From contig JAUHWT010000007.1 in the NCBI GenBank assembly GCA_030427145.1, positions 1-64,000 on the forward strand: a stretch of 64,000 nt of DNA, in the 5' to 3' direction. The stretch comes from Alphaproteobacteria bacterium. GTDB taxonomy: Bacteria; Pseudomonadota; Alphaproteobacteria; Rhodobacterales; Rhodobacteraceae. This document shows positions 1,174 through 17,215 of this stretch, one piece after another. Every line of letters starts with the position of its first letter. Positions within the stretch are counted from its first letter, which is position 1. Position numbers and translations under genes: made by a program. Under the pieces are notes generated by a model. It did no database searches and was not told where the DNA came from. It worked only from the letters and a program-made list of their open reading frames with translations.

Positions 1174-3897
1174 TTAGAGCAGGTCATCCAAGGGGTCGAT
1201 CGGGTCGTTTCTTGTCCACATCGGGCGCTTACCATGCCGGTTTGTCATTCCTTTGGCATGGTATTTCCACCCTTTTACCCCTCGCAGGGCGCGGCCGATC
1301 TGTTGAACCTCGCGATGCTCGACCTCGTCGGGAGCCTTCCCGAGCATGTCTTCCACGATCTCGGCAACGCACACACTATTGCGCCCCTGGTCGTCCAACC
1401 ACGCCGAAATCTCACCGGTGAGGCGCTCTGTCGGCGTCTCGTCGCCCCGGCACCAGACCCTCTGCCTTCCGTAGCGCTCAGTCGTCCAGCCGGCGACCAT
1501 TGTCCACCCCTGAAGACCCCGCAGCGCGCGAGATATCTGCTGCATCTGGCGGACGTCGACGCGCGAGCGGTCCCCGTCGAGCATTTCCTCGTAGATCTCC
1601 CGTGCGCAAACGTGGTCGCGGTATATCGGGGCACCCTCGTCACCGAGGTCGTCGAACCCGCTGCCGTCCTGAATGGGTATTTCGAGCCAGGCTTCGATCT
1701 GGCCGAGCAGCTGCTCTTCGACGGTGTCTGCGCGGCGCATTTCCTGCAACACCTTCGCCTGCGTCGATGCGCGGGCGTCCTTCAGATAGAGGGGCAGGTC
1801 CCCGCCTGCTTTTTCGGCCCGCATCTGATGGTAATAGTGCGTGGCCTCGGCCCACAGCTGGTCCAGGTTCTCGCGCAGCCGGTCAATGTCGATAGACGCC
1901 ACGTTGCAGAGGATCGGCCAAAAGCGCCGGCCGCCGGTCTGGTCGCGCAGGTATTCCTCGTCGTTGGTCGATCCGATGAAGATGCACTGCCGCTTGAAGA
2001 TCATGGCCCGCCGGCCGTACGCCATGCGGACCTTGTCCTGTGGCGCGGAGACGAGACCCTTAATCGTGGTCACGTCGGCCCGGGAGAACCCCTGCAGCTC
2101 CGGGATCTCAAGGACCCAGGCGCCCTGCATCTTTTCTACCATGGCTTTGCGGTCGTGCAGGTCACCCTCCAGTTCCGCCGTCCAGCTGCAACCGAGCGTC
2201 TCAATGAACGTCGTTTTTCGGGCACCCTGAACGCCTTCGAGAATTGGCACAAAGTCAAATTTGTGCCCAGGTTCAAACACCCGGGTGACGGCGCCGAGCA
2301 GCGTGAGCCTGGCCGTGTCCCTGTGGTACTGGTTGTCCTCGGCGCCCATGTAATCGGACCACAGAGTCTCGATGCGCGGGATCCCGTCCCATTCCAGAGA
2401 CATCAAATAGTCGCGGACCGGGTGGAAAGCGTTCTGGTGTGCCGCCATGTCCACAGCGGCGGTCAGATCGCGGTCACTGACCTTGATGCCGTAGCCGCCC
2501 TGCCGGGCCGGCGCCTCTATGATCAGCCGCAGCGCGTGGTCGTGGCTGTCTGTCCACAGTGTTCCGTTTGAGTCGGCCGGCTCGTCCCAGATGGCACCCT
2601 CAAGCTGCCTTGTCGGCTTTGGTGACTTGGTTCTCAGGGAGATTTTGCCCGGCGCATGGCGAACGACAACCTCCTGGGTGAACTCATTAAATCCGATGAT
2701 ACCCCGAACCCTCGGATCGTTTGCCACGATTAGCTCGACGTTCGGCAGGGTGCTCTTGATGTTCCCGTCTTCGCTAACCTGCAGCAGGGAGTACCAATCG
2801 AGAGGTTTCTCTTTCGCCTTGATCGGCGGTCCGAGTATATCGTTGTCATCAGACGTCCCCAAAAGGTCCGCGAGGTCTTCGTCGATCGGGTCCGCAACAA
2901 TCTCTGCGTCCTCAACGAAGCCCTGGTTCTCTTTGAGGCGGTTCCGACCGGCCTCCTGCAACAGGGTCGCCATTCTGACCGGCCGCGGGGCCCCTTTAAA
3001 GGACCTCCACACGCGGGCCGAGTCGCGGCGATCAAACTTTTCGGACGTGGACGCCCACTCACACCACTTTTCGAATCCGTCTTTGGCGCCCTCAAACTCG
3101 TGATGGAGCGCGGCGCCGACCGTCAACCACTGCTCACGATCCTCAACCCAGTCGTCAGGGAGGTCGCGCAGGGTCTTGTCGATTTCGTGTGGTTCCAGGC
3201 CCAATGGCGATTTCTTCACCAGCGCCATCAGGTCGTCATCGTCCGAATCGTCGCCGAGGTCGTCCTGCTGGACGCCCCAGCTGTTGATCAGCTCCGTTGG
3301 AACAACCGGCGCGACACCGAATTCCAGCAGGTCAAAGTCGATCGGTCGCAGCCATTGGTAGGGGCGGTCCGTATCCGGGTGGATGGATGGCGGGATGACG
3401 GCCTGCTTTCCGGATCCGTAAAGTTCTATCTCCCAGTCGTGCTTTTTGACCTCCCGACCGAGTTTGCTGTCGAAGACCATCGAGAAGCCGGTGGAGCGCA
3501 CGAGTTTTCTGGAGCGATACGGCGTCTCGGCTATGAAATAGAAGTGCCGACTGGCCCCGCCGCTGCCCGATTGGACGACACCGAGTGCGTCGTCGACCCC
3601 GGGCCACATTTCCCGGAGCTTTCCCATGGCCTCGTCGGCCAGATCGTCTTTACGTATGTCGAGGTCTATCAGGTGCAGATAGCCGCATTCCGTACGTGAA
3701 AATTCACCGAGGCGAATGCCAATATTGGCACCCTGAACATGGGAAGATTCGAGACCTTCGAGTGTGGCGACCGGCGCTGTCGACCAGTCGTTCAATCGCG
3801 GCGCCTTGCTGCGCACGCGCAACCAGTGAAGCGCGGCTCCTGCGGACACGAGTGGCTTGGCGGCGCCAAGTGCGTCGCTCTTCGAAAGTTCGGCCAT
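1174..3897 (-). CDS. Phage PrimPol-VapE type primase/helicase
   Basis: A 907-residue replication protein. The N-terminal part looks like an archaeo-eukaryotic primase-polymerase: catalytic-type DLD at residues 78-80 and SGGASRHFYF near 112-121. A PriCT-like segment follows (about 240-315). A VapE/D5-type ATPase covers about 490-700, with Walker A-like GVQGARKTT (555-563), a Walker B-like strand VLEIPE (595-600), STND (643-646) and GGRRFWP (655-661). It should prime and unwind DNA for the element. The C-terminus carries two similar modules (about 728-816 and 823-895), each containing QQI.RALRG and ending with an R-G-rich W-C/T-R strand, probably winged helices. The protein ends in DPLDDLL. In Walker A the usual GK is RK, which I believe occurs in this family. 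The start has AAGGG seven bases upstream. Confidence 0.88.
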   Translation of the reverse strand: MAELSKSDALGAAKPLVSAGAALHWLRVRSKAPRLNDWSTAPVATLEGLESSHVQGANIGIRLGEFSRTECGYLHLIDLDIRKDDLADEAMGKLREMWPGVDDALGVVQSGSGGASRHFYFIAETPYRSRKLVRSTGFSMVFDSKLGREVKKHDWEIELYGSGKQAVIPPSIHPDTDRPYQWLRPIDFDLLEFGVAPVVPTELINSWGVQQDDLGDDSDDDDLMALVKKSPLGLEPHEIDKTLRDLPDDWVEDREQWLTVGAALHHEFEGAKDGFEKWCEWASTSEKFDRRDSARVWRSFKGAPRPVRMATLLQEAGRNRLKENQGFVEDAEIVADPIDEDLADLLGTSDDNDILGPPIKAKEKPLDWYSLLQVSEDGNIKSTLPNVELIVANDPRVRGIIGFNEFTQEVVVRHAPGKISLRTKSPKPTRQLEGAIWDEPADSNGTLWTDSHDHALRLIIEAPARQGGYGIKVSDRDLTAAVDMAAHQNAFHPVRDYLMSLEWDGIPRIETLWSDYMGAEDNQYHRDTARLTLLGAVTRVFEPGHKFDFVPILEGVQGARKTTFIETLGCSWTAELEGDLHDRKAMVEKMQGAWVLEIPELQGFSRADVTTIKGLVSAPQDKVRMAYGRRAMIFKRQCIFIGSTNDEEYLRDQTGGRRFWPILCNVASIDIDRLRENLDQLWAEATHYYHQMRAEKAGGDLPLYLKDARASTQAKVLQEMRRADTVEEQLLGQIEAWLEIPIQDGSGFDDLGDEGAPIYRDHVCAREIYEEMLDGDRSRVDVRQMQQISRALRGLQGWTMVAGWTTERYGRQRVWCRGDETPTERLTGEISAWLDDQGRNSVCVAEIVEDMLGKAPDEVEHREVQQIGRALRGVKGWKYHAKGMTNRHGKRPMWTRNDPIDPLDDLL

Positions 3898-3912
3898 CGG
3901 AGACCCTTCTTA

Positions 3913-4263
3913 TCAGTCGAACAGGAAGGGTGTGAGCATATCTTCCGTGAGCCGGGGTTCGCCGGTGTCCGGGTCGCCGCTGATCTCAATAAGGGATTTG
4001 ACCGCCTTGACGCTCAGGCGATTTTTCTCAAGCCACCGATAGACCGTGTAGCGATGATTCCCGGTGGCATCGGACAGCCTGTTTACGTCGATTCGACCGT
4101 CCAGCTTGCAGGCCTCCGGCAGCTTCTCCACGAGAAACGCGTGCAGGTCGGATTCGTAATACTTGGGTTTGTCTGGGTTTTTCGGCGGTCTGCCAAATGC
4201 CGCCTGAGTCCCGGATGCCATCAGCCGATTTGTTTTGTCCATTATGCACCTGCCATTTTTCAC
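3913..4263 (-). CDS. Small DNA-binding-like protein
   Basis: A 116-residue protein that I do not recognise by name. The middle, about residues 58-90 (RLSDATGNHRYTVYRWLEKNRLSVKAV in outline), reads like a helix-turn-helix: short helix, turn with Gly-Asn-His, then a helix rich in Tyr/Arg/Trp. It lies 15 bases upstream of the primase/helicase gene in the same direction and faces a divergent operon across a shared promoter region, so a regulatory or replication-accessory role is plausible. A second start at 4242 (MDKTN) has AGGT five bases upstream and may be the true one; that would give 109 residues. Unlike several neighbours it does not end in the DDLL-type tail. Confidence 0.65.
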   Translation of the reverse strand: MKNGRCIMDKTNRLMASGTQAAFGRPPKNPDKPKYYESDLHAFLVEKLPEACKLDGRIDVNRLSDATGNHRYTVYRWLEKNRLSVKAVKSLIEISGDPDTGEPRLTEDMLTPFLFD

Positions 4264-4404
4264 GACTCACCTTATATAGCGACCCTGCCAAAATCAACCA
4301 AAGAGTGAAACATAGCGCATTTTAGTTGAAAGTCATCTCGCGATGTGGTGTAAGGGTGATGCACAAGGAAACTATTTCCGAATCAACACAAAAGCGGAGC
4401 TGAC
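4264..4404. promoter_or_regulatory. Divergent promoter region with a 21-bp element shared with 11937-11957
   Basis: This 141-bp gap separates the leftward primase operon from the rightward replication operon. The 21 bases at 4318-4338 (containing CATTTTAGTTGAAAGTCA) match the reverse complement of 11937-11957 at 18 of 21 positions. A related AGTGAAAC occurs at 4304-4311. Such a shared element in two promoters of one element suggests a common regulator, plausibly the repressor-like protein encoded at 11226. The binding protein is inferred. Confidence 0.5.
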
Positions 4405-4890
4405 ATGTCCCTCGAAGAATCCATCATCGCCATGACGAAGGCGCTCGCCGAAAACACTGCCGAAGTTCGCAAGCTGGGCGAAAGCACAGTGCGCCTCATG
4501 GAACTCCGCGAGGACGCAATCACCAAGGTGTCCGCAGCGGCCGCGCCGGCGAAAAAGGCCACGGCGAAAAAGGCTGAAAAGGTCGAGGACGCTGAAGAGG
4601 TCGCCCAGACCAAGGGCAATATCTCGGAAAGCCCTGAGGATCGTAAGGATCCGGCGGACAAGGCGGACGATCTCAGCAGCGAAGTGCGGCAGAGCATTAT
4701 TGACTACGTGACCGTCGAAGATGTCGACGAGCGTGAAAAGCGTAAGGCGAAGGTGAAGGAATACCTGACCAAGGTCGGCGCGTCCGGCGCGAGCGAGATC
4801 CCCGACAACAAGAAACAGGCGTTCATCAACACGATGAAAAAGCTTCTCAAGGAAGCCCAGAAAGCCTCGCCGGAAGAAGACCTGCTCTAA
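4405..4890 (+). CDS. Coiled-coil/linker phage protein with EEDLL tail
   Basis: First gene of the rightward replication operon, 161 residues, family not recognised. Residues 1-45 form a likely coiled coil (MSLEESIIAMTKALAENTAEVRKL...). An Ala/Lys-rich linker follows (about 45-65, repeated KKA), then an acidic linker. A C-terminal helical domain (about 95-155) contains Lys-rich helices and ends with SPEEDLL. The final four residues match the D/E-D/E-L-L ends of four other proteins of the element. The modular layout suggests an adaptor that bridges replication proteins; that is inference. GGAG lies six bases before the ATG. The short gap before the next gene (4891-5031) holds no clear gene. Confidence 0.75.
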   Translation: MSLEESIIAMTKALAENTAEVRKLGESTVRLMELREDAITKVSAAAAPAKKATAKKAEKVEDAEEVAQTKGNISESPEDRKDPADKADDLSSEVRQSIIDYVTVEDVDEREKRKAKVKEYLTKVGASGASEIPDNKKQAFINTMKKLLKEAQKASPEEDLL

Positions 4891-5031
4891 CGGGATACCC
4901 CTGCGGCCGGGTGGGGCGCAGGGGTAAGGCGAGGCGTCCGGGGGCCGCAGGTACTCACAATGTTGCGGCATTCCTGTGGCACGCTCCCCACCGGGCGTCT
5001 CGCCATCATCAAAACAGGACGGGAGGTCCCA

Positions 5032-5385
5032 ATGACACAGGTTCACGAGTTTCCGCAGATCGCCGGGCGCAATGTGTCGCCTGAGATCGGCCGCGATATT
5101 GGCGCAGCGATGGCGATGCTCCGCGAGAACGTTTGGGTTCGCCGCACGGCGTGGGTCGAAGACAAAAATGCCCCGGTTTGCCTGGTACTGGTTACTGGCA
5201 GGCGCGCGGAGGCCATCCTCGGGATCGGCAGCGTGGACGAAGCGGTTGGAGACGGTAATGCATTCCGCACCCGTCAGCACATCGACGCGCTTTACTGCAG
5301 CGGAAATGGCGCTGAGCCCGAGGTGGTCGTTGGATACCAGTTCACGCAGCAGGATATCCTGGCCGAGGATTGGTGCATGGCATGA
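5032..5385 (+). CDS. Tad2-like (DUF2829) protein, possible anti-defence sponge
   Basis: A 117-residue protein. Its pattern fits the DUF2829/Thoeris anti-defence 2 family: an N-terminal segment IGRDIGAAMAMLREN.WVRRTAW, then a hydrophobic strand CLVLVTG, an HID near residue 84, and the closing QQDILAEDW typical of the family's last strand. Known Tad2 proteins bind nucleotide second messengers of Thoeris and related defences; whether this one does cannot be read from sequence. The upstream in-frame extension to 4960 is unlikely because GGGAGG sits six bases before the ATG at 5032. The stop overlaps the next start as ATGA, so it is translated with the nuclease gene. It is somewhat longer than the usual 80-100 residues. 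Confidence 0.7.
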   Translation: MTQVHEFPQIAGRNVSPEIGRDIGAAMAMLRENVWVRRTAWVEDKNAPVCLVLVTGRRAEAILGIGSVDEAVGDGNAFRTRQHIDALYCSGNGAEPEVVVGYQFTQQDILAEDWCMA

Positions 5386-6575
5386 GCGCACACGCGCGAC
5401 TCTCACCGTCGGCCTCAAGCCGCTGGATGCTGTGTCCGGGATCGGTTCTGCTGATTGAGCGCCTCATTGAGGAAGGCCTGATCGTGGAAGACCGGTCCTC
5501 CGAGGCTGCCGCCGAGGGTACGGCTGCCCACGAGTTGCGCGCAGAGTGCTTGGACCTCGGCCTTGAGCCGCACGATTTTATCGGCCAGACGATCCGGGCC
5601 GATGGTATGGCGTTCGAGGTCACCGAGGAGATGTGCGACCACCTGCAGACCGGCATTGATTGGGTCAGAGAACAAGCGGGCGACCCGATCATAGAGGCGC
5701 GGGTATCACTGGACAGGTGGCTACCGGGCCAGTTTGGGACACTTGATTGCGGTTTCGATCACGACGGGCTGCTGACGATAAATGACCTGAAATATGGCCT
5801 CGGGAAGGTCTCAGCCGACGAGAACCGCCAGCTGCGCATCTACGCGCTCGGCTTCTATGACCTGATGAAGCGACCGGTTGAGACGGTTCGACTGGTCATA
5901 GATCAACCGCGGGCCGGCGGTCTGAAGATATGGAGCTGCCCTTTATCCGAGCTCCTTGAGTTTGGGGAAGAGGTTCGCGCCGCGGGAAAGCTGGCACTGT
6001 CTCCTGATGCGCCGCTGGTGGCCGGTGAGACGCAGTGCCAGTGGTGCCCGGTTAAGGACACGTCGCGCGGCTGCGCCGCCTACGACAAATTTTGTGAGGA
6101 CATATTCTGCGGAGCCTTCGACGACTTGGACGCGGATCCTGAATTCGTCGAACCAGAGACGATGGAACCGGAGCGCCGCTGGTACATCATCACGCACACG
6201 AAAATGGCAAAATCCTGGCTGGACCAGTTGTACGAAGCTTCATTGACCGCCGCGCAGGCCGGGAAACCTGACCCTGGGTCAAAACTTGTGACCGGGAACG
6301 AGGGTGACCGCTTCTACACCGACCCGCAGGCCGCAGAAGAGATACTCGTGGCGGCCGTGGGTGACGACGACGCGTTCGGTCCGCGGAAGCTGAAGTCGCC
6401 AAAGCAGGCCGAAGATATGCTGAAACCGAAGCGAAAGAGGCGCGGGAACCCCGAGGCATGGGAATCCCTCTGCGAGATCATCAACCGCCCGCCCGGGAAG
6501 GCGAAGGTTGTTCCGATTTCGGAAGACGGCGAGCCCGCAACGCCCTTCGCCGACATGTTTGATGAACTTTTGTAA
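5382..6575 (+). CDS. DUF2800 family Cas4/RecB-like nuclease
   Basis: A 397-residue protein with the layout of phage DUF2800, a Cas4/AddB-like PD-(D/E)XK nuclease. Seen in order: SSRWMLCPGS (first Cys at 18), a His-containing helix EGTAAHELRAE, the strand pair GQFGTLDCGFD and LTINDLKYG (acidic residue and catalytic-type Lys), the NRQLRIYALG helix, and a Cys cluster QCQWCPVKDTSRGC. The N-terminal Cys plus three later Cys would hold an iron-sulfur cluster. It probably trims DNA ends in replication or recombination together with the polymerase and the DUF2815 protein next to it. The basic C-terminal part (KPKRKRR) ends in MFDELL. The start overlaps the upstream stop as ATGA. Confidence 0.85.
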   Translation: MSAHARLSPSASSRWMLCPGSVLLIERLIEEGLIVEDRSSEAAAEGTAAHELRAECLDLGLEPHDFIGQTIRADGMAFEVTEEMCDHLQTGIDWVREQAGDPIIEARVSLDRWLPGQFGTLDCGFDHDGLLTINDLKYGLGKVSADENRQLRIYALGFYDLMKRPVETVRLVIDQPRAGGLKIWSCPLSELLEFGEEVRAAGKLALSPDAPLVAGETQCQWCPVKDTSRGCAAYDKFCEDIFCGAFDDLDADPEFVEPETMEPERRWYIITHTKMAKSWLDQLYEASLTAAQAGKPDPGSKLVTGNEGDRFYTDPQAAEEILVAAVGDDDAFGPRKLKSPKQAEDMLKPKRKRRGNPEAWESLCEIINRPPGKAKVVPISEDGEPATPFADMFDELL

Positions 6576-6589
6576 CCAAGGAGCCTGAC

Positions 6590-7213
6590 ATGGCAGAAAA
6601 AGACGCACAGACGGTCCACATCAAGCGGGTTCGCTTGAGTTTCAATGACTTGGTGGAGGCCAAGGCGTCTGTTAAGGACGGCCCCAAGAAATTCGGTGCC
6701 CACTTCATTATCGACCCGGCTACACCGCAGGGCGCTGCGAACGTAGAAGTGTGTAAGGCAGCCGTTGAGGCGGCCGAAATGGACCTTTTCGGTAAGGCCG
6801 GGGTAATCAAGGCGACAGTCGACGATCGTAAGCGGATCGCTTTCCGCCGCGGCGAGACGTTCAAGGACGGCGAAGGCGAAGTCTACAGCGGCTATGAGAA
6901 TATGGTGGGCGTTGTTTCCAAGAACAAAAAGCGACCGAAACTTTACGACCGCCGCAAAGAGCCTGTCGCGGTCGAGGACATCGAGGATGTGTTCCAGAGC
7001 GGACAGTTCTGCGATGCGATTGTTCGTTTCTACTGCGTCAACCATACTGACAAGGGCGGCAATGGTTTGTTTGCGGAAGTGGCCGCGATCCGGGCACATC
7101 AGGAAGGCGAGATCTTCGGCGGCGGCGTCAAGGTCGATGCCGACGACTTTGACGACCTGGACGACCTGGTCGACGAGCCGACCTCCGGCGGAAACGTCGA
7201 CGATCTGCTATAA
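6590..7213 (+). CDS. DUF2815 family ssDNA-binding-type protein
   Basis: A 207-residue protein matching phage DUF2815, a family found beside DUF2800 nucleases and phage polymerases and regarded as a single-strand DNA binding, OB-fold-like protein. Supporting features are the opening VHIKRVRLSFNDLVEA, the KFGAHFIIDP strand, the YSGYENMVGVVSKNKKRP segment, and a long acidic C-terminal tail (from about residue 180: DADDFDDLDDLVDE...) that ends NVDDLL. Acidic tails are typical of SSB proteins and act as partner-binding sites. AAGGAG lies seven bases before the ATG. The gene overlaps an alternative start of the next small ORF at its stop codon. Confidence 0.85.
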   Translation: MAEKDAQTVHIKRVRLSFNDLVEAKASVKDGPKKFGAHFIIDPATPQGAANVEVCKAAVEAAEMDLFGKAGVIKATVDDRKRIAFRRGETFKDGEGEVYSGYENMVGVVSKNKKRPKLYDRRKEPVAVEDIEDVFQSGQFCDAIVRFYCVNHTDKGGNGLFAEVAAIRAHQEGEIFGGGVKVDADDFDDLDDLVDEPTSGGNVDDLL

Positions 7214-7263
7214 TGTCAATCGGGGCGGGGTTTCCCGTCTCCATTTTGCAGGAGGGTTTGATA

Positions 7264-7470
7264 ATGCAGTTTTATTTCGTGATTGTCCTTTGTTTGGTGT
7301 CTGGCGATTCGCCCTGCACGATCACGCGACCGGTGCTCGGCGATGACATGCGGCAGAACCCTCCTGTAACCTGCGAGTCCTATTTCGAAGGAACTCTGAA
7401 GCCTGCTCTTGAGGCGCGAGGGCGTCTGACAGCAAACCTTCGTGACTGTGGAGAAGTGACTCCCGCATGA
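7264..7470 (+). CDS. Small hypothetical phage protein
   Basis: A 68-residue protein of unknown function. It starts with a hydrophobic stretch (MQFYFVIVLCLVSGDS) and has three later Cys residues (PCTIT, TCESYF, RDCGE). The hydrophobic start lacks the basic residues of a normal signal peptide, so export is uncertain. An upstream ATG at 7213 overlaps the previous stop, but GGAGGG eight bases before 7264 favours the shorter form. The stop overlaps the polymerase start as ATGA, so it is part of the coupled operon. Confidence 0.6.
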   Translation: MQFYFVIVLCLVSGDSPCTITRPVLGDDMRQNPPVTCESYFEGTLKPALEARGRLTANLRDCGEVTPA

Positions 7471-9416
7471 AGGATGTTCTGGCCTGCGACATTGAGTGCT
7501 ATCACGGTTACTTTTTCATAGGTTTCCGCCGCGTCAGCGACGGGAAAACCGTAGGTTTTGAAAAGAGTGATCGCAGCGAGCTCGATATTCCGCGTATCAG
7601 GCAGCTGATGATGCGGGCCACGATCGTAACCTTTAACGGTATGGGTTACGACGTTCCGATGATCTTCTACGCTCTGTCCGGCGCGTCAAATGCGCAATTG
7701 AAGAAGGCGAGCGATGGCATCATCAAAGGAGGCGTCAGGTGGTGGAAGGTGGAAGAGTATCTCGGTGTGCGCATACCGTGGGGCGTTGACCACATTGACC
7801 TCATTGAGCCGCAGCCGAACGCTTTCGCGAGCCTGAAAATTCTCAAAGGCAGGTTGCACGACGACCGCATGCAGGACCTGCCATACGAAGCGGACCATCG
7901 GCCGACGCACGCCGAGATGGACAAGCTGAACGACTACTGCCTCAATTCTGACCTTCCCGGTACCGTAAAACTCTACCAAGCGCTGCGGGAGCCACTTGAA
8001 TTGCGCGAAACCCTCGGCCGGGAATATGGTCAGGACTTCAGGTCAAAATCCGACCCCCAGATAGGGGAGTCGATTGTGAAGAAACGCATTGAGCATTTGA
8101 CCGGCAAACGGCCGGTAAAGGTTGAAACTAGGCCTGGTGACAGTTTCTCGTACCGCCCGCCGGATTGGTTGAAGTTCGACCGACCGGATCTCGAACGTCT
8201 TTTGCAGCGCATACGTGATCACGACTTCATTATTGGCGAAAACCGTAAGGTCGGCCTCCCACCGTGGTTGGCGCAGGAAAGAGTGGAAATAGGCACGAGC
8301 GCCTATGCCATGGGGATCGGCGGACTTCATTCCACCGAGGCGAACCGCGCGGTGACCACGACCGAAACGCACGTGCTCGTCGATGCGGACGTGGCGTCAC
8401 AGTACCCGTCAATCATCGAGATGCTGGGACTGGCGCCGCTGTCGCTCGGAAAGGACTTTCTTGAGGTTTACGGAAAGATCAAGGCCGACAGGCTCGCCGC
8501 GAAGCGCGCCAAAATCAAGGCCACGGACAAGGGTCTCAAAATCGCATTGAACGGGGTTTACGGCAAGCTGGGGTCACCCTACAGCGTCCTCTTTGCCCCG
8601 CACCTTATGGTGGCTGTCACGCTGACGGGGCAACTCTCATTGCTGATGCTGATTGAGCGGGCGGAGGCCGCCGGCATTTCCGTGGTGAGCGCAAACACCG
8701 ACGGCGTTGTGTTCAACTGCCCGCGCGAAAAGTTCGCCGGAATAGATGGCGACCGGTTGAATGAGTCCCTGCTGGCGCAGATCACGTCACAGTGGGAGCG
8801 TGAGACCGGGCTGAACCTTGAATTTGCCGAGTATTCCGGCATCTACAGTCAAAGCGTCAACAGCTACATCGCGATAAAGCCCGACGGTGGGCACAAGCGA
8901 AAAGGTCCCCTCGGTAACCCGTGGTCCGCGGATCCGGCAGATTATGATCCCCGGGCGTCGCTGATGAAGAACCCTCAGATGACGATCTGCTCGGACGCCG
9001 CGCTCGCGAAGATAAAGTATGGCACACCGGTTGCCGACACGATCCGCGCCTGCAGGGATATCCGGCAGTTCGTGACCGTGGTAAAGGTCACGGCGGGCGC
9101 AACCTGGCGCGACGAGTACCTGGGCAAGGTTGTTCGGTACTACTGGTCGACGCGAGGCGATCCGATATATGAGGCGAAGGCGCACGCCAAAACAGGAAAT
9201 CACAAAAAGGTCAGCAAGACAGACGGCTGCTCGCCCTGTATGGACCTGCCGGACTCCGTGCCGTCTGATATTGATTACGATCGCTATATCGCGGAGACCG
9301 AGTCTATTCTAACAGAGGTTGGCTTCTACGGCACACCTCTGCCGGCACTCAAGCGCATACGACTGACAAAAGCGAACTGGCAGAACGTCCTTGCCGAGTG
9401 GGCTGCCGTCGCATGA
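7467..9416 (+). CDS. Phage family B DNA polymerase
   Basis: A 649-residue replicative DNA polymerase with proofreading. The N-terminal DEDD exonuclease has D8-E10 (ACDIECY), N57/D62 (TFNGMGYD) and Y157/D162 (YCLNSDLPG). The polymerase part has motif A DADVASQYPS (306-315), motif B K358...LNGVYG and motif C ANTDG (409-413), so the usual DTDS reads NTDG. A GGLHS segment precedes motif A, as in several phage polymerases. It is shorter than cellular family B enzymes. Start and stop overlap the neighbouring genes by four bases each, so it is co-translated with the small ORF upstream and the VRR nuclease downstream. It should copy the element's DNA together with the primase/helicase at 1174-3897. 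Confidence 0.88.
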   Translation: MKDVLACDIECYHGYFFIGFRRVSDGKTVGFEKSDRSELDIPRIRQLMMRATIVTFNGMGYDVPMIFYALSGASNAQLKKASDGIIKGGVRWWKVEEYLGVRIPWGVDHIDLIEPQPNAFASLKILKGRLHDDRMQDLPYEADHRPTHAEMDKLNDYCLNSDLPGTVKLYQALREPLELRETLGREYGQDFRSKSDPQIGESIVKKRIEHLTGKRPVKVETRPGDSFSYRPPDWLKFDRPDLERLLQRIRDHDFIIGENRKVGLPPWLAQERVEIGTSAYAMGIGGLHSTEANRAVTTTETHVLVDADVASQYPSIIEMLGLAPLSLGKDFLEVYGKIKADRLAAKRAKIKATDKGLKIALNGVYGKLGSPYSVLFAPHLMVAVTLTGQLSLLMLIERAEAAGISVVSANTDGVVFNCPREKFAGIDGDRLNESLLAQITSQWERETGLNLEFAEYSGIYSQSVNSYIAIKPDGGHKRKGPLGNPWSADPADYDPRASLMKNPQMTICSDAALAKIKYGTPVADTIRACRDIRQFVTVVKVTAGATWRDEYLGKVVRYYWSTRGDPIYEAKAHAKTGNHKKVSKTDGCSPCMDLPDSVPSDIDYDRYIAETESILTEVGFYGTPLPALKRIRLTKANWQNVLAEWAAVA

Positions 9417-9727
9417 GCTTTGAGGACCGTCGAGAGCTTGAGGAAGACATCGAGTGGACGGTGGCCGCGTGGGCCGAGAACAACGGTTGGCTCCCCCGCA
9501 AGATCGTCTACAAGGGGCGGCGAGGCTGCCCTGACCACATGTTCGTGGGTTTCGGGCATATTGTCTTCATTGAGTTCAAGAGGCCCGATGACGGCCGATT
9601 GAGCGCCGGGCAGGGGCGTGAGCGGAAACGTTTTGCAGAGCGCGGCGTCACCATCCACGTCTGCGACACGATCGACGACGCGCAATCGATACTGCGGGCA
9701 CACATGCCGGAGGCGCCCGGTGCTTGA
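9413..9727 (+). CDS. VRR-NUC domain nuclease
   Basis: A 104-residue stand-alone VRR-NUC domain of the PD-(D/E)XK class. Visible motifs are an N-terminal E-rich helix (RRELEEDIEWTVAAW), GCPDHMF (catalytic Asp), FIEFKRP (E.K) and SAGQGRERKRF. In phages such proteins sit between the polymerase and an SNF2 helicase, as here, and probably act as structure-specific nucleases in replication or recombination. The start ATG overlaps the polymerase stop (ATGA). Its end overlaps the GTG start of the helicase by eight bases. Confidence 0.85.
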   Translation: MSFEDRRELEEDIEWTVAAWAENNGWLPRKIVYKGRRGCPDHMFVGFGHIVFIEFKRPDDGRLSAGQGRERKRFAERGVTIHVCDTIDDAQSILRAHMPEAPGA

Positions 9728-11144
9728 CCGCCACAATCTGCGCGACGATCAGAAGTTTATCGTCGAGACCATGCTGCGCGAGCCCGCCAAGCTGATCGTG
9801 CTCAAGATGGGCGGCGGTAAGACCGCCGCGGCACTCACGGCCGCCCGCCACCTTCTGGACATGTTTGAGGTCAACCGGGTGCTCGTGATCGCCCCGAAGC
9901 GCGTCGCGAAGGACACCTGGCCCACCGAGGTTGCCAACTGGCGCCATACCCGCGCACTCAGCGTCGCTGTGATCGCCGGTGCCGCTGATACGGTCACAAA
10001 GAAGAAGGCGCGGGACGCGGCCGCGGGCGGGAACGCCGAGATCACGATCGTGAACCGGGAGTCGCTGGTGTGGCTCGCCAAGTTCCACGGCACGCCGTCG
10101 AAATGGCCCTATGACATGGTCATTGTTGACGAAAGCAGCATGTTCAAGGCCGGCAAACAGCGGACCAAGCGCACGAAATACAAAAATTCCAAGGGTCAGA
10201 CCGTCGTGCGTAAGGGCGGAAAGGTCACCCGGTTTGGTGTGCTTGCCAAGGTTCGCAAATACATCAAGCGGATATACCTTCTGACCGGTACGGCCGCGCC
10301 GAATGGCGTCATAGATCTCTGGGGGCAGGCCTACCTCCTGGATCAGGGCAAGCGACTGGGCGAGACGCAGGGGAAGTTTCACGATAAATGGTTTGACAAG
10401 AACCAATACTCGCATGCCATCACGCCGAAAGATGGCGCCGAAGACGAGATTATGGCCCGCATATCGGACATAATGGTGACGCTGGATTCCCCCAAGGTCG
10501 TCCCCGATCCCGTGTATATCCCGATTCGCGTGCCTTTGAGTCGGCCCGTATTACGACAGTTCGCCGAGTTCAAGCGCACACTTGTGAGTGAAATTCACGA
10601 TGTTGAGGCTGTGACACAGGGTGTTTTGACAAACAAACTGTTGCAGTTTGCAAACGGGTCGATGTATCGTGAAGATGGTAGCGTCGCCGAAGTCCATAGC
10701 GAAAAGCTCGACGCGCTGGACGAACTGATCGAACGCGCAGCCGGCGAGTCCGTGCTCGTGTTTTATGGTTTTAAGTTCGATCTCGAAGCAATTCGTAAGC
10801 GTCACCCCGACGCTGTTGTCCTGAACGAAAGTGAAACAGCGGTTCAGGATTGGAATGCCGGTAAGATACGGATTCTTCTTGCACATCCTGCCTCTTGTGC
10901 CCACGGACTCAATCTGCAATACGGTGGGCACATTGCAATATGGTACGGACTGACATGGAGCCTGGAGCTGTTCCAACAAGCGAATGCGAGGCTGCCGCGA
11001 CCCGGGCAGAAGCACCTCGTGGCGATCTATTTCATCATCGCGGACGGGACTACCGACGAGCGAGTCCTCGACGTTTTGCAGGAAAAAGGTGTAACCCAGG
11101 ATCGAATAACGAATCGCGTGATGCGGGCTCTTACCAGCGATTAA
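9720..11144 (+). CDS. SNF2-type DEAD/DEAH helicase
   Basis: A 474-residue superfamily 2 helicase/translocase. Motifs run from the start: an RDDQKFIV Q-like element, Walker A KMGGGKT, a VIVDESS motif II (DEAH-like), LTGTAAPNG motif III, and C-terminal LAHPASCAHGLNLQ and QANARLPRPGQ (motifs V and VI). The family remodels DNA-bound proteins or branched DNA. A longer open frame begins at 9618, but it would overlap the nuclease gene by 110 bases; GTG at 9720 with GGAGG about seven bases upstream is the better start. It is the last gene of the coupled replication operon. Confidence 0.85.
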   Translation: MLDRHNLRDDQKFIVETMLREPAKLIVLKMGGGKTAAALTAARHLLDMFEVNRVLVIAPKRVAKDTWPTEVANWRHTRALSVAVIAGAADTVTKKKARDAAAGGNAEITIVNRESLVWLAKFHGTPSKWPYDMVIVDESSMFKAGKQRTKRTKYKNSKGQTVVRKGGKVTRFGVLAKVRKYIKRIYLLTGTAAPNGVIDLWGQAYLLDQGKRLGETQGKFHDKWFDKNQYSHAITPKDGAEDEIMARISDIMVTLDSPKVVPDPVYIPIRVPLSRPVLRQFAEFKRTLVSEIHDVEAVTQGVLTNKLLQFANGSMYREDGSVAEVHSEKLDALDELIERAAGESVLVFYGFKFDLEAIRKRHPDAVVLNESETAVQDWNAGKIRILLAHPASCAHGLNLQYGGHIAIWYGLTWSLELFQQANARLPRPGQKHLVAIYFIIADGTTDERVLDVLQEKGVTQDRITNRVMRALTSD

Positions 11145-11225
11145 ACTCAAATACAACTTAAACGTGGATTGACTGTGAAAGGTTTCAAGTTCATTGTGAA
11201 AGTGTATTTTAGAGGGTCTTAGGTT
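11145..11225 (+). promoter_or_regulatory. Promoter/operator region of the repressor-like gene
   Basis: A TTGACT -35-like hexamer lies at 11169-11174, with a weak -10 candidate about 17 bases on. It overlaps the dyad TGAAAGGTTTCA (11176-11187). TGTGAAAG occurs twice, at about 11174 and 11195. The words ACTTAAA and GTGGAT before the -35 recur in the promoter at 11937-11967. The arrangement suggests autoregulation by the downstream gene. Confidence 0.5.
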
Positions 11226-11924
11226 ATGACGAACGCAAAAACTACGCCTACCAGCAGTGCCTCCAAATCTCGGTACCCGGATCTGGCGAAGCGAATCGCT
11301 CAGGCCTGCGACGGGAACCCGAACGTACCGCCCCCGAATTTCGGCCGCCTGGGGTGGATCCAGAACCAATTTGAGAATCGCGGCGTCTCGATAAGCATTG
11401 AGACCGTGCGACGCTGGCTGGGCGGCGAGGCTCGCCCCCGCGCCAAAATGATGCAGATGCTGGCGCAGACGCTCTCTGTGGACCACGCATGGCTTGCTCT
11501 CGGTTCGTCTCCCGAGATGACCGAGAAGCAGCAGGCCGCACGCAATGCCACTGCCAGCGGCGCTGTGAATCTCATCGCCGGCCTCATTCAGATGGGCGGC
11601 GGGACACCGGCTTTCCCTGAAGAGCCGGGCGATACCGACCTGACGGCAATCATCAAGGGCGCGCAGTATTCCATTCACGTCGCGACGGCCGATCATACCG
11701 ACAAAGGGTGGAAGTTTGCCGTGCCGATTGGTGCGCTGAACGACCTGGTTTTGGGTGTCATTCGCACCGGTGAGATGAGTTTCAGAATTGTGGAGCTGGA
11801 TGCGGACGGGCTTGAGAGCGAGGGGCGGCGAAACGGAGGTCACCTTGTTGTCACCATGAGCGATGATTTGCTGACCGGTGAGCACCAGTGGGGCGAGATT
11901 AAAACGTTCTCCCAGCGGCTCTGA
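11226..11924 (+). CDS. Phage repressor-like transcription regulator
   Basis: A 232-residue protein. The N-terminal 95 residues look like an XRE/CI-type helix-turn-helix domain: LAKRIAQACDG, a turn region, then SIETVRRWLGGEARPRAKMMQMLAQTLSVDHAWLALG, which is the usual end of such domains. The C-terminal half lacks the Ser-Lys protease signature of LexA/CI and instead has a mixed beta region (IHVATADHTDKGWKFAVPIG). It is flanked by two promoters carrying related GTGAAAGT-type sequences, so it probably controls itself, the methyltransferase gene and the divergent promoter at 4.3 kb. The effector of the C-terminal part is unknown. Confidence 0.75.
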   Translation: MTNAKTTPTSSASKSRYPDLAKRIAQACDGNPNVPPPNFGRLGWIQNQFENRGVSISIETVRRWLGGEARPRAKMMQMLAQTLSVDHAWLALGSSPEMTEKQQAARNATASGAVNLIAGLIQMGGGTPAFPEEPGDTDLTAIIKGAQYSIHVATADHTDKGWKFAVPIGALNDLVLGVIRTGEMSFRIVELDADGLESEGRRNGGHLVVTMSDDLLTGEHQWGEIKTFSQRL

Positions 11925-11936
11925 TCCGGGCAATAA

Positions 11937-11967
11937 AGTTGACTTTCACTTAAAATGTGGATACTTT
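11937..11967 (+). promoter_or_regulatory. Sigma70-like promoter overlapping the 21-bp operator-like element
   Basis: TTGACT at 11939-11944 and TACTTT at 11962-11967 are separated by exactly 17 bases. The -35 lies inside the 21-bp element 11937-11957 that is shared (18 of 21, inverted) with 4318-4338. It reads into the methyltransferase-like gene at 11991. A regulator bound here would block the -35, as expected for repression. Confidence 0.6.
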
Positions 11968-11990
11968 CGATCTTCATAACGGAGATCGAA

Positions 11991-12791
11991 ATGCCCCTAC
12001 CGCTCGTGGTGTCATTTTTTGACTACACAGGCCACGCTGTTCGCGACTGGGCGGCAGCCGGGTGCGAATGCTGGTGTTTTGATATTCAGCATTCCCACTC
12101 CGGGCACGTCGAAAACGTTGGCGGCGGCAGAATACGTTACCTTTATGCTGACCTCTCCGCAGGGTCCACAGACTGGTCACGAATTCGGGAGACAATAGCC
12201 CGTGCAGGGCGCCGCCCTTTGGTGATTTTTGCTTTCCCACCTTGCACGGAGCTTGCCACATCCGGCGCCCTGCACTGGGAGCGTAAGCGGGCCGAGGATC
12301 CGCAATTTCAGACCAAGGCCGCCGCGATGGCGACAGCTGCCGCAGACCTGGGCGAAAGCGCCGGGGCTACCTGGTTGGTGGAAAACCCAAGATCGGCCCT
12401 GTCAACGCTGTGGCGGTCCCCGGACCACAAGTTTTCGCCGCACGAATACGGGGGCTACCTTCCCGAGGATGACCAACACCCACGGTGGCCAGACTACATC
12501 GCCCCCAGAGACGCTTATCCGAAAGAGACATGGCTGTGGGTAGGCGGAGGTTTTCGCATGCCGCCTCGGCGACCAGTCACCCCAGAAGTGTTTGAGGTTG
12601 TCCGTAAGACTGGTGCCAAGGCAGGTCGCGTTACAACCGGCGCCCGCCAATGGTTGAAGCTCGGAGGCAAGAGTCTGCGGACAAAAAACATTCGTAACGA
12701 GAGCCCCCGCGGCTTCTTCCGCGCGGTCTTTGAAGCAAATTTCCCGGGCGAACATTCTTTTGTAGAAAAACACTGGCTCTGCGCCCCATAG
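11991..12791 (+). CDS. Phage cytosine-methyltransferase-like protein
   Basis: A 266-residue protein resembling a conserved phage family annotated as DNA cytosine methyltransferase. It opens with a Rossmann-like strand and loop (VVSFFDYTGHAVRDWAAAGCECWCFDIQHS), then has IFAFPPCTELATSG, where PPC is the m5C catalytic motif, and WLVENPRSALSTLWR in place of the usual ENV motif. The later KFSPHEYGGYLPEDD and DAYPKETWLW are typical of this family. No restriction gene is nearby, so it would be an orphan enzyme, perhaps protecting the element's DNA. GGAG six bases before the ATG supports the start; a longer form from 11955 would begin within the promoter. Confidence 0.7.
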   Translation: MPLPLVVSFFDYTGHAVRDWAAAGCECWCFDIQHSHSGHVENVGGGRIRYLYADLSAGSTDWSRIRETIARAGRRPLVIFAFPPCTELATSGALHWERKRAEDPQFQTKAAAMATAAADLGESAGATWLVENPRSALSTLWRSPDHKFSPHEYGGYLPEDDQHPRWPDYIAPRDAYPKETWLWVGGGFRMPPRRPVTPEVFEVVRKTGAKAGRVTTGARQWLKLGGKSLRTKNIRNESPRGFFRAVFEANFPGEHSFVEKHWLCAP

Positions 12792-12807
12792 CCCACAGGA
12801 GGGGTAC

Positions 12808-13023
12808 ATGAACACACGGCCCATAGAGAATGCCATGGTCGAGAACGAACTTCGGGCATTTCATATTCACCGCACATCAGACGGCGGATGGGAGGTTTGC
12901 ACCCGCAGAGCGGACTCGGCCGGGTGGGTCGTTCATTGCGGCCCGGACCTCGAAACGCAGGTTCAGAAGGCATTGGGCCTCCCGTGCCCGTCGGTAGAAT
13001 CAGACATTGAAGATCTGCTATGA
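12808..13023 (+). CDS. 71-aa protein with EDLL tail
   Basis: Last gene of the element before apparent chromosomal DNA; 71 residues, family unknown. A compact mostly-beta segment (FHIHRTSDGGWEVCTRRADSAGWVVHCG) is followed by a short helix and the end SDIEDLL. The last residues match those of four replication proteins in the element. A strong ribosome binding site (AGGAGGGG) precedes the ATG, so it is probably expressed with the methyltransferase gene 16 bases upstream. It might regulate or compete for whatever binds the shared tail; this is inference. Confidence 0.7.
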   Translation: MNTRPIENAMVENELRAFHIHRTSDGGWEVCTRRADSAGWVVHCGPDLETQVQKALGLPCPSVESDIEDLL

Positions 13024-13329
13024 CCTCGGTGTTGGTATTGGCGTTGGTATCAGCCTGATAAATGTAAATGATTTCAACGAATATGGTAGCCTCCTCCGCT
13101 ACCAAAAATTCCCTTACATTCTCGAGTTTATCGGTTTGGGCTGGAGGTCTTTCCGCCCAATGACCGGGTCCCGGTTCAGGTCAAACCTGCCAATTCCTGT
13201 GAAGACAGCCATGTCCGTGAAATTCCTCTCAAAAAAAGGCGCTGGAAGCCTGCAGTGCCGGGTATTAAACCTGAAAGCAGATTCACTGGCGCTCCCGTAC
13301 GCGGCGAGCCAAAAAAATCAGGAACTCCG
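13024..13329. other. Intergenic boundary between the element and the chromosome
   Basis: About 300 bases without a convincing gene. It contains the hairpin/tRNA-end-like sequence at 13085-13104. An open frame from 13007 to 13333 lacks protein character. The right part presumably carries the promoter of the ThuA-like gene, but no clear hexamers were picked out. Confidence 0.5.
13085..13104 (+). other. Possible attachment-site sequence resembling a tRNA 3' end
   Basis: CCTCCTCCGCTACCA at 13090-13104 has the layout of a tRNA 3' end: a seven-base acceptor strand, a discriminator base and CCA. GGTAGC and GCTACC also form a perfect 6-bp dyad here. No tRNA body is attached. Integrated elements often leave such a duplicated tRNA end at one border, and this lies just past the last element gene. 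It is a hypothesis only. Confidence 0.3.
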
Positions 13330-14118
13330 ATGAAACAGATCAACGCCGTCGTCTGGGGCGAAAACGTGCATGAGCGGACCAACAAGATCGTCGCTGAAAT
13401 CTATCCTGATGGCATGCACGGGTGTATCGCTGCAGCCCTGAATGAGGCTGATGGGATCAATGCAACCACGGCAACACTCCAGGAGCCGGAGCATGGTCTG
13501 ACCGTTGAGCGGCTGGCCGAAACCGACGTGCTGCTCTGGTGGGGACATGCGGCGCACGGCGACGTAGAAGATGAAATTGTTGAGCGGGTGGCCGATGCGG
13601 TCAACGCCGGCATGGGGCTGATCGTGCTTCACTCGGGTCACTTCTCCAAGATCTTCCGCCGTCTGATGGGGACACCGTGCAACCTCTCCTGGCGTGAGGC
13701 CGGTGAGCGGGAACGCATCTGGGTCACGTCGCGTCAGCACCCCATTGTTCGCGGACTGCCGGACCATTTTGAGCTGGAAAGCGAGGAAATGTATGGCGAA
13801 CCGTTCGGTATTCCGGAGCCCATGGAAACCGTCATGATCGGCTGGTTTCAGGGCGGCGAGGTATTTCGGTCCGGTGTGACCTATCGGCGCGGAGCAGGGA
13901 AGGTCTTCTATTTCCAGCCGGGCCACGAAACCTATCCGACCTATCACGACGCGAACATCCGCACGGTGCTCCGCAACGCGGTCGCGTGGGCCTACAACCC
14001 GGAGGCACGCATTCAGGACGTCAATGCCGCGCCGAACCGTTCGGTTGAGGACGCACTGGAGGCCATCGAACAGAAAGGGCCGCGGCTGCACGAGGACGGC
14101 GAGGAGGGTTTTCGGTGA
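13330..14118 (+). CDS. ThuA-like protein
   Basis: A 262-residue protein of the ThuA (trehalose utilisation) family, which has a class I glutamine-amidotransferase-like fold without a known reaction. Visible features are [10 protein letters not shown] at the start, [26 protein letters not shown] and the closing [20 protein letters not shown]. It overlaps the following oxidoreductase gene by GTGA, so the two are co-translated; ThuA-like and Gfo/Idh proteins commonly act together in sugar or polyol metabolism. The start at 13330 is preferred over an upstream in-frame ATG at 13255, which has no ribosome binding site. Confidence 0.85.
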
Positions 14119-15185
14119 GCGCCCAACGCATCCGTCTGCTGGTTGTGGGCACGGGCGGCATGGCCCGGGCCCATGTCGAGGCGTTCAGCGCGATCGATGG
14201 CGTGGAGATCGTGGCCGGTATCGATCGTGACGCCAATCGGCTGGCTACTTTTTGCGATGAGCATGGCATCGAAAAGCGGTTTCAGTCCGTCGATGAGGCG
14301 CTGGAGTGGGGCGAATTTGATGCCGTGACCAACGTGACGCCCGATGCCGTTCACTGTGTGACGACCCTGCCGTTTCTCGAGGCCAAAAAGCACGTTCTCT
14401 GTGAAAAACCCCTGGCAGTTACCCACGCCGACGCATCCCGGATGGCGGAGGCCGCGACCAATGCTGGCGTCGTCAACATGGTGAATCTGACCTACCGCAA
14501 TGGTCCGGCAATGCAAACAGCGGCCAAAATGGTCGCATCCGGCGAAATCGGTGAGGTGCGTCACTTTGATGCGTCATATCTGCAAAGCTGGCTGACGCAG
14601 GATGCCTGGGGCAAATGGGACGAGGAGGAGCAGTGGCTCTGGCGTCTTTCTTCAGCCCATGGGTCGAAAGGTGTACTGGGCGACGTCGGAGTTCATATCC
14701 TCGACTACGCCACTCACGTGGCGGGCAGCGCAGTTGCCTCCGTCTCGTGTCGTCTTAAGACCTTCGACAAGGCGCCTGGCAACCGGATTGACGACTATGT
14801 TCTGGACGCCAATGACAGCTGCATGATGCATCTTGAACTGGCAAATGGTGCGACCGGTGTACTGCATGCGTCCCGCTTTGCCTCCGGGCATATTAACGAC
14901 CTGTCCCTCAGCATTTATGGTGACAAGGGTGGGCTTGAGGTCCGGGCCACACATGGGGTCAATACGCTGCGTGCCTCTACCGGAGAGGATCTTCTCGAAG
15001 GAGTCTGGAGAGACGTCGAGATACCCGAGTCCGAGCCCTGGGTTTTCGAGCGCTTCATTTCCGCCATTCGGGGCGAGGGCCAGATGGACCCGGATTTCGC
15101 CCGGGGCGCTGACCTTCAGAAGGTTCTCGACCTCGCCGTTGAATCGGATGAGGCAAAGGGCATAATCACCGCCGTCCAGGCTTAG
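14115..15185 (+). CDS. Gfo/Idh/MocA family oxidoreductase
   Basis: A 356-residue NAD(P)-dependent dehydrogenase. The N-terminal Rossmann fold starts [17 protein letters not shown] (a GxGxxA-type motif), and CEKPLAVT near residue 97 is the family's catalytic-Lys motif. [15 protein letters not shown] gives the usual His in the C-terminal domain. The likely substrate is a sugar or inositol derivative, not definable from sequence. It begins with GTG overlapping the stop of the ThuA-like gene by four bases. Its stop overlaps the stop of the convergent Nnr gene. Confidence 0.88.
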
Positions 15186-16669: not shown

Positions 16670-16849
16670 GTGACACCCTCCCGGATCGTTTGCAGGCTTC
16701 GATAACATGAGGAAACCTGTCCTCAAACAGGGCTGCAGTCAAAGGCTGCGGGAAGGCGGCCACAAACGCTGCAAACCTGCTGGACGTCACAATCGATTTG
16801 CGGCAATCCTCGGTGTAAATTCATTGTGGGTTCAAAAGGGACTGGGCAA

Positions 16850-17215
16850 ATGCTGAAATTTACCGAGGAACACGAATGGCTGCTGCTCGACGGTGATGAG
16901 GTTACCGTCGGCATCACCGATCACGCCGCCAAACAGCTGGGTGACCTGGTTTTTGTCGAACTGCCCGAAGCCGGGGCGGTCGTGGCCAAGGGCGACGAAA
17001 TCGTGACCATCGAGTCCGTGAAGGCTGCCAGCGACATCGTGGCTCCGCTCGACGGTACGATTACGGAGGTGAACGAGGCGATTGTTGAAGATCCGGCGAA
17101 GGTGAATGAGGACCCGATGGAAATCGGCTGGTTCTTCAAAATGACCCTGAATGACGCATCCGATATGGACGGCCTCATGGATGAGGATGCATATCAGGAA
17201 TTTATTGCCGACTGA
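16850..17215 (+). CDS. gcvH: Glycine cleavage system H protein
   Basis: A 121-residue lipoyl carrier protein. The lipoylated Lys is K58 in TIESVKAAS, and the opening [24 protein letters not shown] is typical. H protein shuttles the aminomethyl group between the P and T proteins, and in some bacteria also takes part in lipoate transfer. Neither gcvT nor gcvP is beside it, so here it stands alone between nnr and the nuo operon. The start at 16850 gives the normal H-protein N-terminus; an upstream in-frame start at 16826 would add eight residues. Confidence 0.93.

Follow-up and report, generated by a model that had tools for sequence, protein, structure and literature searches.

A replication module with five matching C-terminal ends

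We studied a stretch of 64,000 nucleotides from a bacterium of the Rhodobacteraceae (hereafter the window; assembly GCA_030427145.1, contig JAUHWT010000007.1, positions 1 to 64,000). Its first 13 kb are a phage replication module, followed by chromosomal-looking genes, and the start of the window coincides with an edge of contig C2 in the assembly. Five proteins of the module finish with the same kind of peptide, two acidic residues followed by two leucines ([DE][DE]LL):

1174..3897, negative strand: primase-helicase (Prim-Pol, PriCT-2 and VapE-like domain), 907 aa, end PLDDLL, tail codons 1177-1194
4405..4890, positive strand: small helical coiled-coil (CC) protein, 161 aa, end PEEDLL, tail codons 4870-4887
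5370..6575, positive strand: DUF2800 / Cas4-like PD-(D/E)XK exonuclease, 401 aa, end MFDELL, tail codons 6555-6572
6590..7213, positive strand: DUF2815 single-stranded DNA-binding protein (SSB) of the Enc34/gp2.5 type, 207 aa, end NVDDLL, tail codons 7193-7210
12808..13023, positive strand: 71-aa protein, end DIEDLL, tail codons 13003-13020

All five open reading frames (ORFs) are present at the stops and with the endings given by the original prediction, which had proposed these tails as a docking peptide for one hub. The [DE][DE]LL end was found in 5 of the 13 listed element genes and in 2 of 1406 background genes (called genes of other loci, with the tail-bearing families left out). The probability of at least five such ends among 13 genes at the background rate is 7e-12, a value that is only indicative because the motif was picked after it had been seen; the covariation tests (see below) are independent evidence for the shared tail. 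Tail codons are not the same across the five genes. All five tails end in LL, not in the PF of the bacterial SSB type. No constraint on the last codons by ribosome-binding sites was seen in the window: the AGGAG that follows the DUF2800 gene falls 3' of its stop, AGGA is lacking from the final codons of the SSB gene (its stop codon overlaps the following ATG), and the primase gene has no obvious close downstream gene.

The DUF2815 protein is, from its sequence and its predicted fold, a putative single-stranded DNA (ssDNA) binder of the Enc34/T7-gp2.5 type. It matched PF10991 (Enc34_ssDNA-bd; E=2.7e-19, 70 bits against a cut-off of 26) and phrog_112, its sequence relatives in the PDB were 4jg2, 4klk and 5odj, and a fold search with its AlphaFold2 model (mean confidence, pLDDT, 91.6) gave nine PDB matches at E<=0.001, all of them Enc34 SSB, DUF2815 proteins or T7 gp2.5. 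Its sequence carries an acidic C-terminal tail; the analogy with SSB tails drawn in the original prediction is therefore literal for one of the five proteins. The same SSB has an internal DDFDDLDD motif (7142-7165) after the oligonucleotide-binding fold, conserved in the aligned SSBs of loci that were partly found by this motif.

The other tailed proteins are of unlike kinds. The primase-helicase matched PF09250, PF08707 and PF05272 in Pfam and phrog_256/1313 in PHROG, and the DUF2800 nuclease matched PF10926 (E=5.5e-62) and the exonuclease phrog_69. The AlphaFold2 model of the CC protein (mean pLDDT 82.4) consists of a helix (3-46), a low-confidence linker, helices at 84-154 and a flexible tail, and a PDB fold search with it returned no match at E<=0.001. 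The 71-aa protein had no PHROG match, and a comparison with all ORFs in the collected loci brought up nothing below E=0.2; its translation is supported by AGGAGGGG immediately upstream of its ATG. Between the CC and DUF2800 genes, positions 4960-5385 encode a protein like Thoeris anti-defence 2 (Tad2-like; 28.2 bits, cut-off 25). Past the 3' end of the primase gene, positions 1-165 at the contig edge read by eye as a 35-bp unit repeated in tandem about 4.5 times, and these repeats perhaps broke the assembly.

Tails change together across phages

Homologous loci were drawn from viral contigs, prokaryote genomes and further genomes, and families were assigned by iterated profile searches from the window proteins. 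Some viral loci were found by patterns including the DDFD motif inside the SSB, which leaves the tails of the other proteins unbiased; other viral and prokaryote loci were selected by the polymerase. Neither a scan of genome contigs with the SSB alignment nor one of viral sequences with the DUF2800 protein confirmed a relative. From 129 SSB-bearing loci, 93 were kept, a locus being dropped if its SSB was at least 80% identical to a kept one. The CC set had 20 loci in a first pass (z=9.5) and was widened to 32 by a looser profile cut-off together with position and N-terminus, the tail being unused; L052 and L104, excluded by the position rule, were restored and are counted in the 32. Coupling was scored between the six C-terminal residues of the SSB and those of its partner in the same locus, against shuffles among loci. 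The phages WildeMaa, BL5, Y55 (from Rhizobium), BcepNazgul, Delta, T7 and SP6 stand outside all counts.

The tail is common within a phage, different between phages, and matched far above shuffled pairings. The strongest couplings have the SSB tail as their common reference: SSB-CC (n=32, mean 16.06 against 5.83 shuffled, z=9.4, 0/5000 shuffles), SSB-primase (n=58, z=5.1, 0/5000), SSB-DUF2800 (n=86, z=3.6, 2/5000) and SSB with a DnaQ-fold exonuclease (n=13, z=3.4, 3/5000). SSB-VRR gave z=2.3 (n=76), CC-primase z=2.3 and DUF2800-primase z=2.4. In a test in which each partner was exchanged for its counterpart from the nearest relative, the real SSB-CC pairs scored better in 25 loci and worse in 7 (p=3e-4). 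Individual loci illustrate the agreement: in L049 both SSB and CC end in GDPNDDLL, in L106 both in DDPLG and in L051 both in DDFGV; L089 has DDLLG on SSB and primase, SDLLG on DUF2800 and DDLLS on CC; and in L100 the SSB, the primase and the DnaQ-fold exonuclease (PF16473) end in DDLGI, the VRR protein in DDLSI and the CC protein in DGLGV.

Tail-less genes of the module in the window include:

3913..4263, negative strand: 116-aa protein where Casjensviridae have a small helix-turn-helix (HTH) regulator, no tail, end FLFD; no Pfam or PHROG match at E<=0.01
7467..9416, positive strand: DNA polymerase, family-B-like, 649 aa, no tail, end AEWAAVA
9398..9727, positive strand: VRR-NUC-type endonuclease, no tail here; phrog_93 endonuclease, the VRR-NUC name coming from the annotation of homologues
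9618..11144, positive strand: SNF2-type helicase, no tail here; PF00176, phrog_62

The polymerase matched phrog_1252 (E=5.7e-180) and PF00136 at 17.6 bits, below the cut-off of 23; its homologue in phage AchV4 carries the annotation DNA polymerase B. Against the SSB, the control tails gave z=0.7 for the polymerase (n=83), 0.8 for SNF2, -0.2 for HTH and -0.6 for orf116; against CC they gave 0.3 for the polymerase and -1.2 for HTH. The last two residues of the polymerase equalled those of the SSB in 0 of 83 loci.

Matching ends could also arise at the DNA level, if gene conversion or small duplications spread 3' ends without selected function. Identical codons are indeed in excess among matching SSB-CC tail residues (54 of 93, expected 43.4 +/- 4.6), and the tail DNA of SSB and CC is identical in L103 and L104. 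However, the counts for SSB-primase (19/36, expected 17.1) and SSB-DUF2800 (23/36, expected 19.5) exceed expectation by only about 0.7 and 1.3 s.d., the DDLL codons of L049 differ between SSB and CC in spite of the shared GDPNDDLL, and copies are found in many different phages and on either strand. With only a weak excess of identical codons, tail matching is mostly at the protein level, and DNA copying is highly improbable as its source.

Which families carry the tail

An end was called tail-like when three or more of its last eight residues were acidic and its last three included a hydrophobic one. Such ends were found in 75/93 SSBs, 24/32 CC proteins, 41/86 DUF2800 proteins, 20/58 primases, 5/13 exonucleases and 10/76 VRR proteins; the counts for the remaining groups were 3/83 (polymerase), 1/72 (SNF2), 0/26 (HTH), 5/31 (orf116) and 67/1196 (other genes). 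The original prediction had named tail-less homologues as an observation that would count against it. These occur in part: among the 22 loci most like the window by primase score, the tail-like ends were 21/22 for CC, 16/22 for SSB, 13/22 for DUF2800 and 8/22 for the primase, which reads as tails being gained and lost together with that of the SSB and not as the lack of a connection. In the 93 loci, a score of at least 18 to the own SSB tail was reached by 28 of 459 genes of known families (3.7 expected) and, outside those families, by 12 of 1216 genes (2.2 expected). The 12 include three copies of the exonuclease, later treated as its own family, and the 71-aa protein of the window. All-against-all comparison within loci gave 52 of 18,471 pairs scoring at least 20, with 10.8 expected.

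Several further ends were observed in these loci. DUF2800 proteins frequently end in FDDLD, and the pattern [FY][DES][DE][LIVM] lies within the last 12 residues of 21/86 of them and of 14/1196 other genes. A second common end, [DE]F..LLG or F.DLLG, is found in L104 (1654-2109, negative strand; 9129-9977 and 12648-13382, positive strand) and in L051 (9025-9210 and 9228-9983), on genes that, L051:9025-9210 aside, match queuine tRNA-ribosyltransferase and DNA methyltransferase families and a family of unknown function; the SSB and CC proteins of these two phages end in DDFG or DDFGV. In L004, besides the primase, CC and SSB, an IG end is found on four genes (14400-14786, 16273-17499, 17713-17955 and 18852-19817), one of which looks by eye like an integrase. 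In L049, in agreement with the NDDLL of its SSB and CC, the tail stands twice at the end of a 147-aa protein (13536-13979; DIDDLLGTPTSIEDLL), and a small protein (12597-12842) that by eye looks HTH-like ends in SVSDLL.

Shared ends in named phage isolates

Deposited gene ends were read in 14 isolates, 12 of them labelled Casjensviridae (Smarc1 and FoX4 are not). The assignments of primase, DUF2800, SSB and VRR were confirmed by profile in 14/14 and that of SNF2 in 13/13, and the small terminase (TerS) was taken as annotated. The window polymerase profile matched 4/14 isolates; several of the other ten polymerases are annotated as family A or polymerase I. For six families in these isolates and the window (15 phages), the mean pair score was 7.53 against 1.83 for shuffles (z=12.6, 0/2000), and z was still 10.6 without Enc34 and N98, which are closely related to the chi-like phage. 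The last residue was identical in 0.48 of 196 pairs against 0.14 after shuffling. Polymerase, VRR, regulator and large terminase (TerL), pooled, gave z=-0.4.

The ends differ from one phage to another and agree within each. Enc34 has DEDEV on primase and SSB, EEEEV on CC and DDDEV on DUF2800 and TerS, and the chi-like Salmonella phage has, like Klebsiella N98, five proteins ending in DEV or DDV. Smarc1 shows DDEL (primase), GDGL (CC), DDDL (DUF2800 and SNF2), EDGL (SSB) and DEEL (TerS); the Aeromonas phage AhMtk13b shows DEEI (primase, TerS), EDDI (CC) and DDEI (DUF2800, SSB, SNF2); and FoX4 shows DDEL (primase and a 241-aa protein), ADEL (DUF2800), DEDL (SSB), DLEL (SNF2), DEEL (TerS) and GEEM (CC). 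Ruegeria phage V18 has EDLLG (primase), DDILG (CC), DDLLG (DUF2800, SSB) and SDLLA (small regulator). Sharing is weaker or partial in JC01 (CC and SSB DDDF, SNF2 VEDF, TerS DDEI, DUF2800 WDDE, none on the primase), AchV4, Phobos, DanisaurMW, RcCWillis and RcJoli. In Brevundimonas phage Delta the SSB ends in EFQL and two other proteins in FDIL. No common end was found among 13 coding sequences of WildeMaa and 10 of BL5, stretches without an annotated SSB, and in bases 1-25000 of BcepNazgul the replication module was not visible in the annotation.

These data bear on two other explanations. The tails might be independent, acidic, DNA-repelling and autoinhibitory, and alike only by acidity; consistent with this, Enc34 SSB lacking its last 21 residues also binds double-stranded DNA, according to PMC5686142. 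Autoinhibition is nevertheless disfavoured by the shuffles: it leaves the within-phage agreement of the last residue (see above) unexplained, as well as the near-absence of tails in SNF2, polymerase and HTH proteins of the 93 loci, and we regard it as very unlikely. Alternatively, a host protein such as a bacterial SSB-tail receptor or the sliding clamp might read the tails. The bacterial SSB hexapeptide DDDIPF binds several host proteins (PMC5872125), and in other loci 12/55 non-redundant VapE-type primase-helicases end in PF like bacterial SSB (e.g. DDYIPF, VDDCPF). On the other side, tails of the window type have no PF end, and phages of closely related Enterobacterales hosts vary in their last residue among V, L, I and F, which disfavours a conserved host receptor. 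A host reader is quite unlikely. The PF-ending primases (L026, L059, L060, L061, L111, L142, L143, L146, L160, L161, L166 and L167; 7/1709 among other genes) are possible cases of mimicry of the host SSB tail.

A probable second piece of the prophage

A profile search of the bacterium's own genome revealed a GpA-type TerL near the end of contig C11, with a DUF1441-type TerS, below its family cut-off, close by. This 15-kb end with the terminase genes stops at the contig edge and has further genes that we take to be integrase, portal, protease and capsid. The best 10 of 612 matches of its TerL were all from Rhodobacter capsulatus phages, including RcCWillis (53% identity), and the Rhodobacter phages closest to this TerL also gave the best match of the window polymerase. 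Among 11 genes read there, two have a similar end: SDVGDLL on the integrase-like one and KGEDLL on one that encodes a 123-aa protein and comes after the capsid gene. Another eight have no such end. The likely TerS (L202:6620-7381) ends in GVDPES and has DDDLDDLL near its N-terminus. The C11 end and the C2 start each lie at a contig edge and are complementary in gene content; the junction between them was not seen. The module order is that of RcCWillis and Enc34 and a matching terminase lies in the same genome, as expected of a Casjensviridae prophage, and we infer that the two pieces are one element.

A candidate docking tag and its receptor

The shared end points to a private docking tag that may gather the replication machinery of the phage on a common partner. 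We put the probability that the last four to seven residues are a docking peptide with a phage-encoded reader, of whatever kind, at about two in three. The peptide would consist of acidic residues and a phage-specific hydrophobic (or G-capped) end; it would be set by the acidic tail of the SSB and borne likewise by the CC protein, the primase-helicase and the DUF2800 nuclease, and in other phages by a DnaQ-fold exonuclease, the SNF2 helicase and TerS. One phage-encoded receptor may read all copies, and the tails would have to follow as its pocket drifts. With less certainty, this receptor could be the phage DNA polymerase, as in T7, the tails then delivering to it, one after another, ssDNA and the enzymes that make primers, unwind DNA and process ends.

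Several observations weigh against the docking peptide or against a single receptor for it. CC and DUF2800 tails are uncoupled in the large set (z=-0.5), yet give z=3.2 in the 15 phages; CC with the control SNF2 reached z=2.1, and the SSB against the small regulator alone z=2.6 in the 15 phages. The nearest-relative exchange was borderline for primase (31/23, p=0.058) and DUF2800 (49/35, p=0.029), and the control SNF2 itself gave 41/25 (p=0.004), which makes the test unreliable for weakly scoring families. Shuffles remove shared descent only in part. The tail is missing from many homologues, and in Bhz60 the primase, CC and SNF2 lack an acidic end despite DDIGL on the SSB and DEDE on TerS. CC was confirmed by profile in only 4/14 isolates and placed in the others by its position after the regulator. 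Finally, column covariation singled out no receptor, and tails are shared in phages with family-A and with family-B polymerases, so that the site would have to exist in either family if the polymerase were the receptor; polymerase families are exchanged among phages (PMC11348598).

Of the original proposal, the data support a peptide of the docking kind that unlike proteins share under one constraint; they do not support the choice of VRR-NUC and SNF2 as hubs. Both are poor candidates because they bear the tail themselves in other phages (VRR in L100; SNF2 in Smarc1, AhMtk13b, Phobos and JC01). In addition, neither family was found in some shared-tail loci such as L004 and L051, which have a phrog_16 helicase instead. 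The polymerase, also named then, fits by its near-constant lack of a tail and is, by analogy with T7, our favoured candidate if the tail is a docking peptide, though at somewhat less than even odds. Under the same condition the groove of the SSB itself would be a considerably less probable receptor, and another phage or host protein takes the remainder. Matrix regression over 51 loci gave a weak pointer to the DUF2800 body (beta 0.28, 0/500 permutations) and none to those of the SSB, polymerase or primase. For SSB, DUF2800, polymerase, primase and SNF2, but not for VRR, column mutual information lay above its null, an excess taken to reflect relatedness.

If the SSB were the receptor, its own tail would enter its own or a neighbour's groove, and the partners would copy the tail to dock or to lever the SSB off ssDNA. 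According to PMC5686142, C-termini in Enc34 SSB crystals lie in the concave sheet of neighbours, with like contacts in two DUF2815 proteins and T7 gp2.5, and a title cited there presents the T7 tail and ssDNA as rivals for one surface. The reference role of the SSB tail in the couplings also agrees with this arrangement. However, the last eleven residues are invisible in the Enc34 crystal (PMC5686142), so that the end itself is unseen in the groove; the tail of the window SSB is of low confidence in its AlphaFold2 model (block means 75, 63 and 60); and similarity of SSB bodies does not predict similarity of tails (Spearman 0.077). We consider this form of a phage-encoded reader unlikely.

In its widest form, a docking peptide may amount to an address code of the phage's own. 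As many as six or seven unrelated proteins, or more, would bear it (SSB, primase-helicase, nucleases, helicase, adaptor and TerS, perhaps also an integrase and a head protein); a single receptor encoded by the phage would read it, and all copies would be rewritten in concert as that receptor drifts. It would keep the machineries of co-infecting relatives apart and couple replication to packaging. We advance this tentatively, leaning slightly against it. If true, what is known of two T7 proteins would extend to a general rule by which a widespread replication module of phages is assembled, a search for C-termini that recur inside one phage would be a simple computational test for partners of unknown genes, and predictions would follow for well-studied phages such as Enc34 and the chi-like ones, among them that TerS links replication to packaging.

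Comparison with known systems

The module order in Casjensviridae (chi-like and Nazgul-like phages such as Enc34 and RcCWillis) is that of the window: primase and regulator on the negative strand, then CC, DUF2800, SSB, polymerase, nuclease and helicase, with extra genes in places (RcCWillis). Shared tails occur there too; the letters DDLL and the 71-aa protein are peculiar to the window.

The C-terminal tail of bacterial SSB is a docking peptide that engages several host proteins, and the tails described here resemble it in joining acidic residues to a hydrophobic end. In bacteria, however, one tail (DDDIPF) serves many receptors, whereas here many proteins carry the tail, which would imply few receptors, and the window tails lack PF.

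The closest precedent is the T7 replisome, and the earlier statement that such a system had not been seen described was too strong: PMC5686142, PMC8835902, PMC8472574 and PMC12593628 report that the acidic SSB tail and the helicase tail of T7 contact the polymerase. In the T7 sequences gp2.5 ends in DEDGDF and gp4 in SNDTDF, both in DF, and the gp5 polymerase has no tail; thus SSB and primase-helicase share an acidic end there, as NVDDLL and PLDDLL do in the window, and the polymerase does not. A search of the open-access literature, with most subscription papers outside it, found no description of such C-terminal tail sharing. T7 has two tailed proteins and the phages studied here up to six or seven, among them a nuclease, a coiled-coil protein, an SNF2 helicase and a small terminase; the primase-helicase here is of the VapE type, and the receptor is only a predicted one. 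What seems new is the number of tailed proteins and their co-change, phage by phage.

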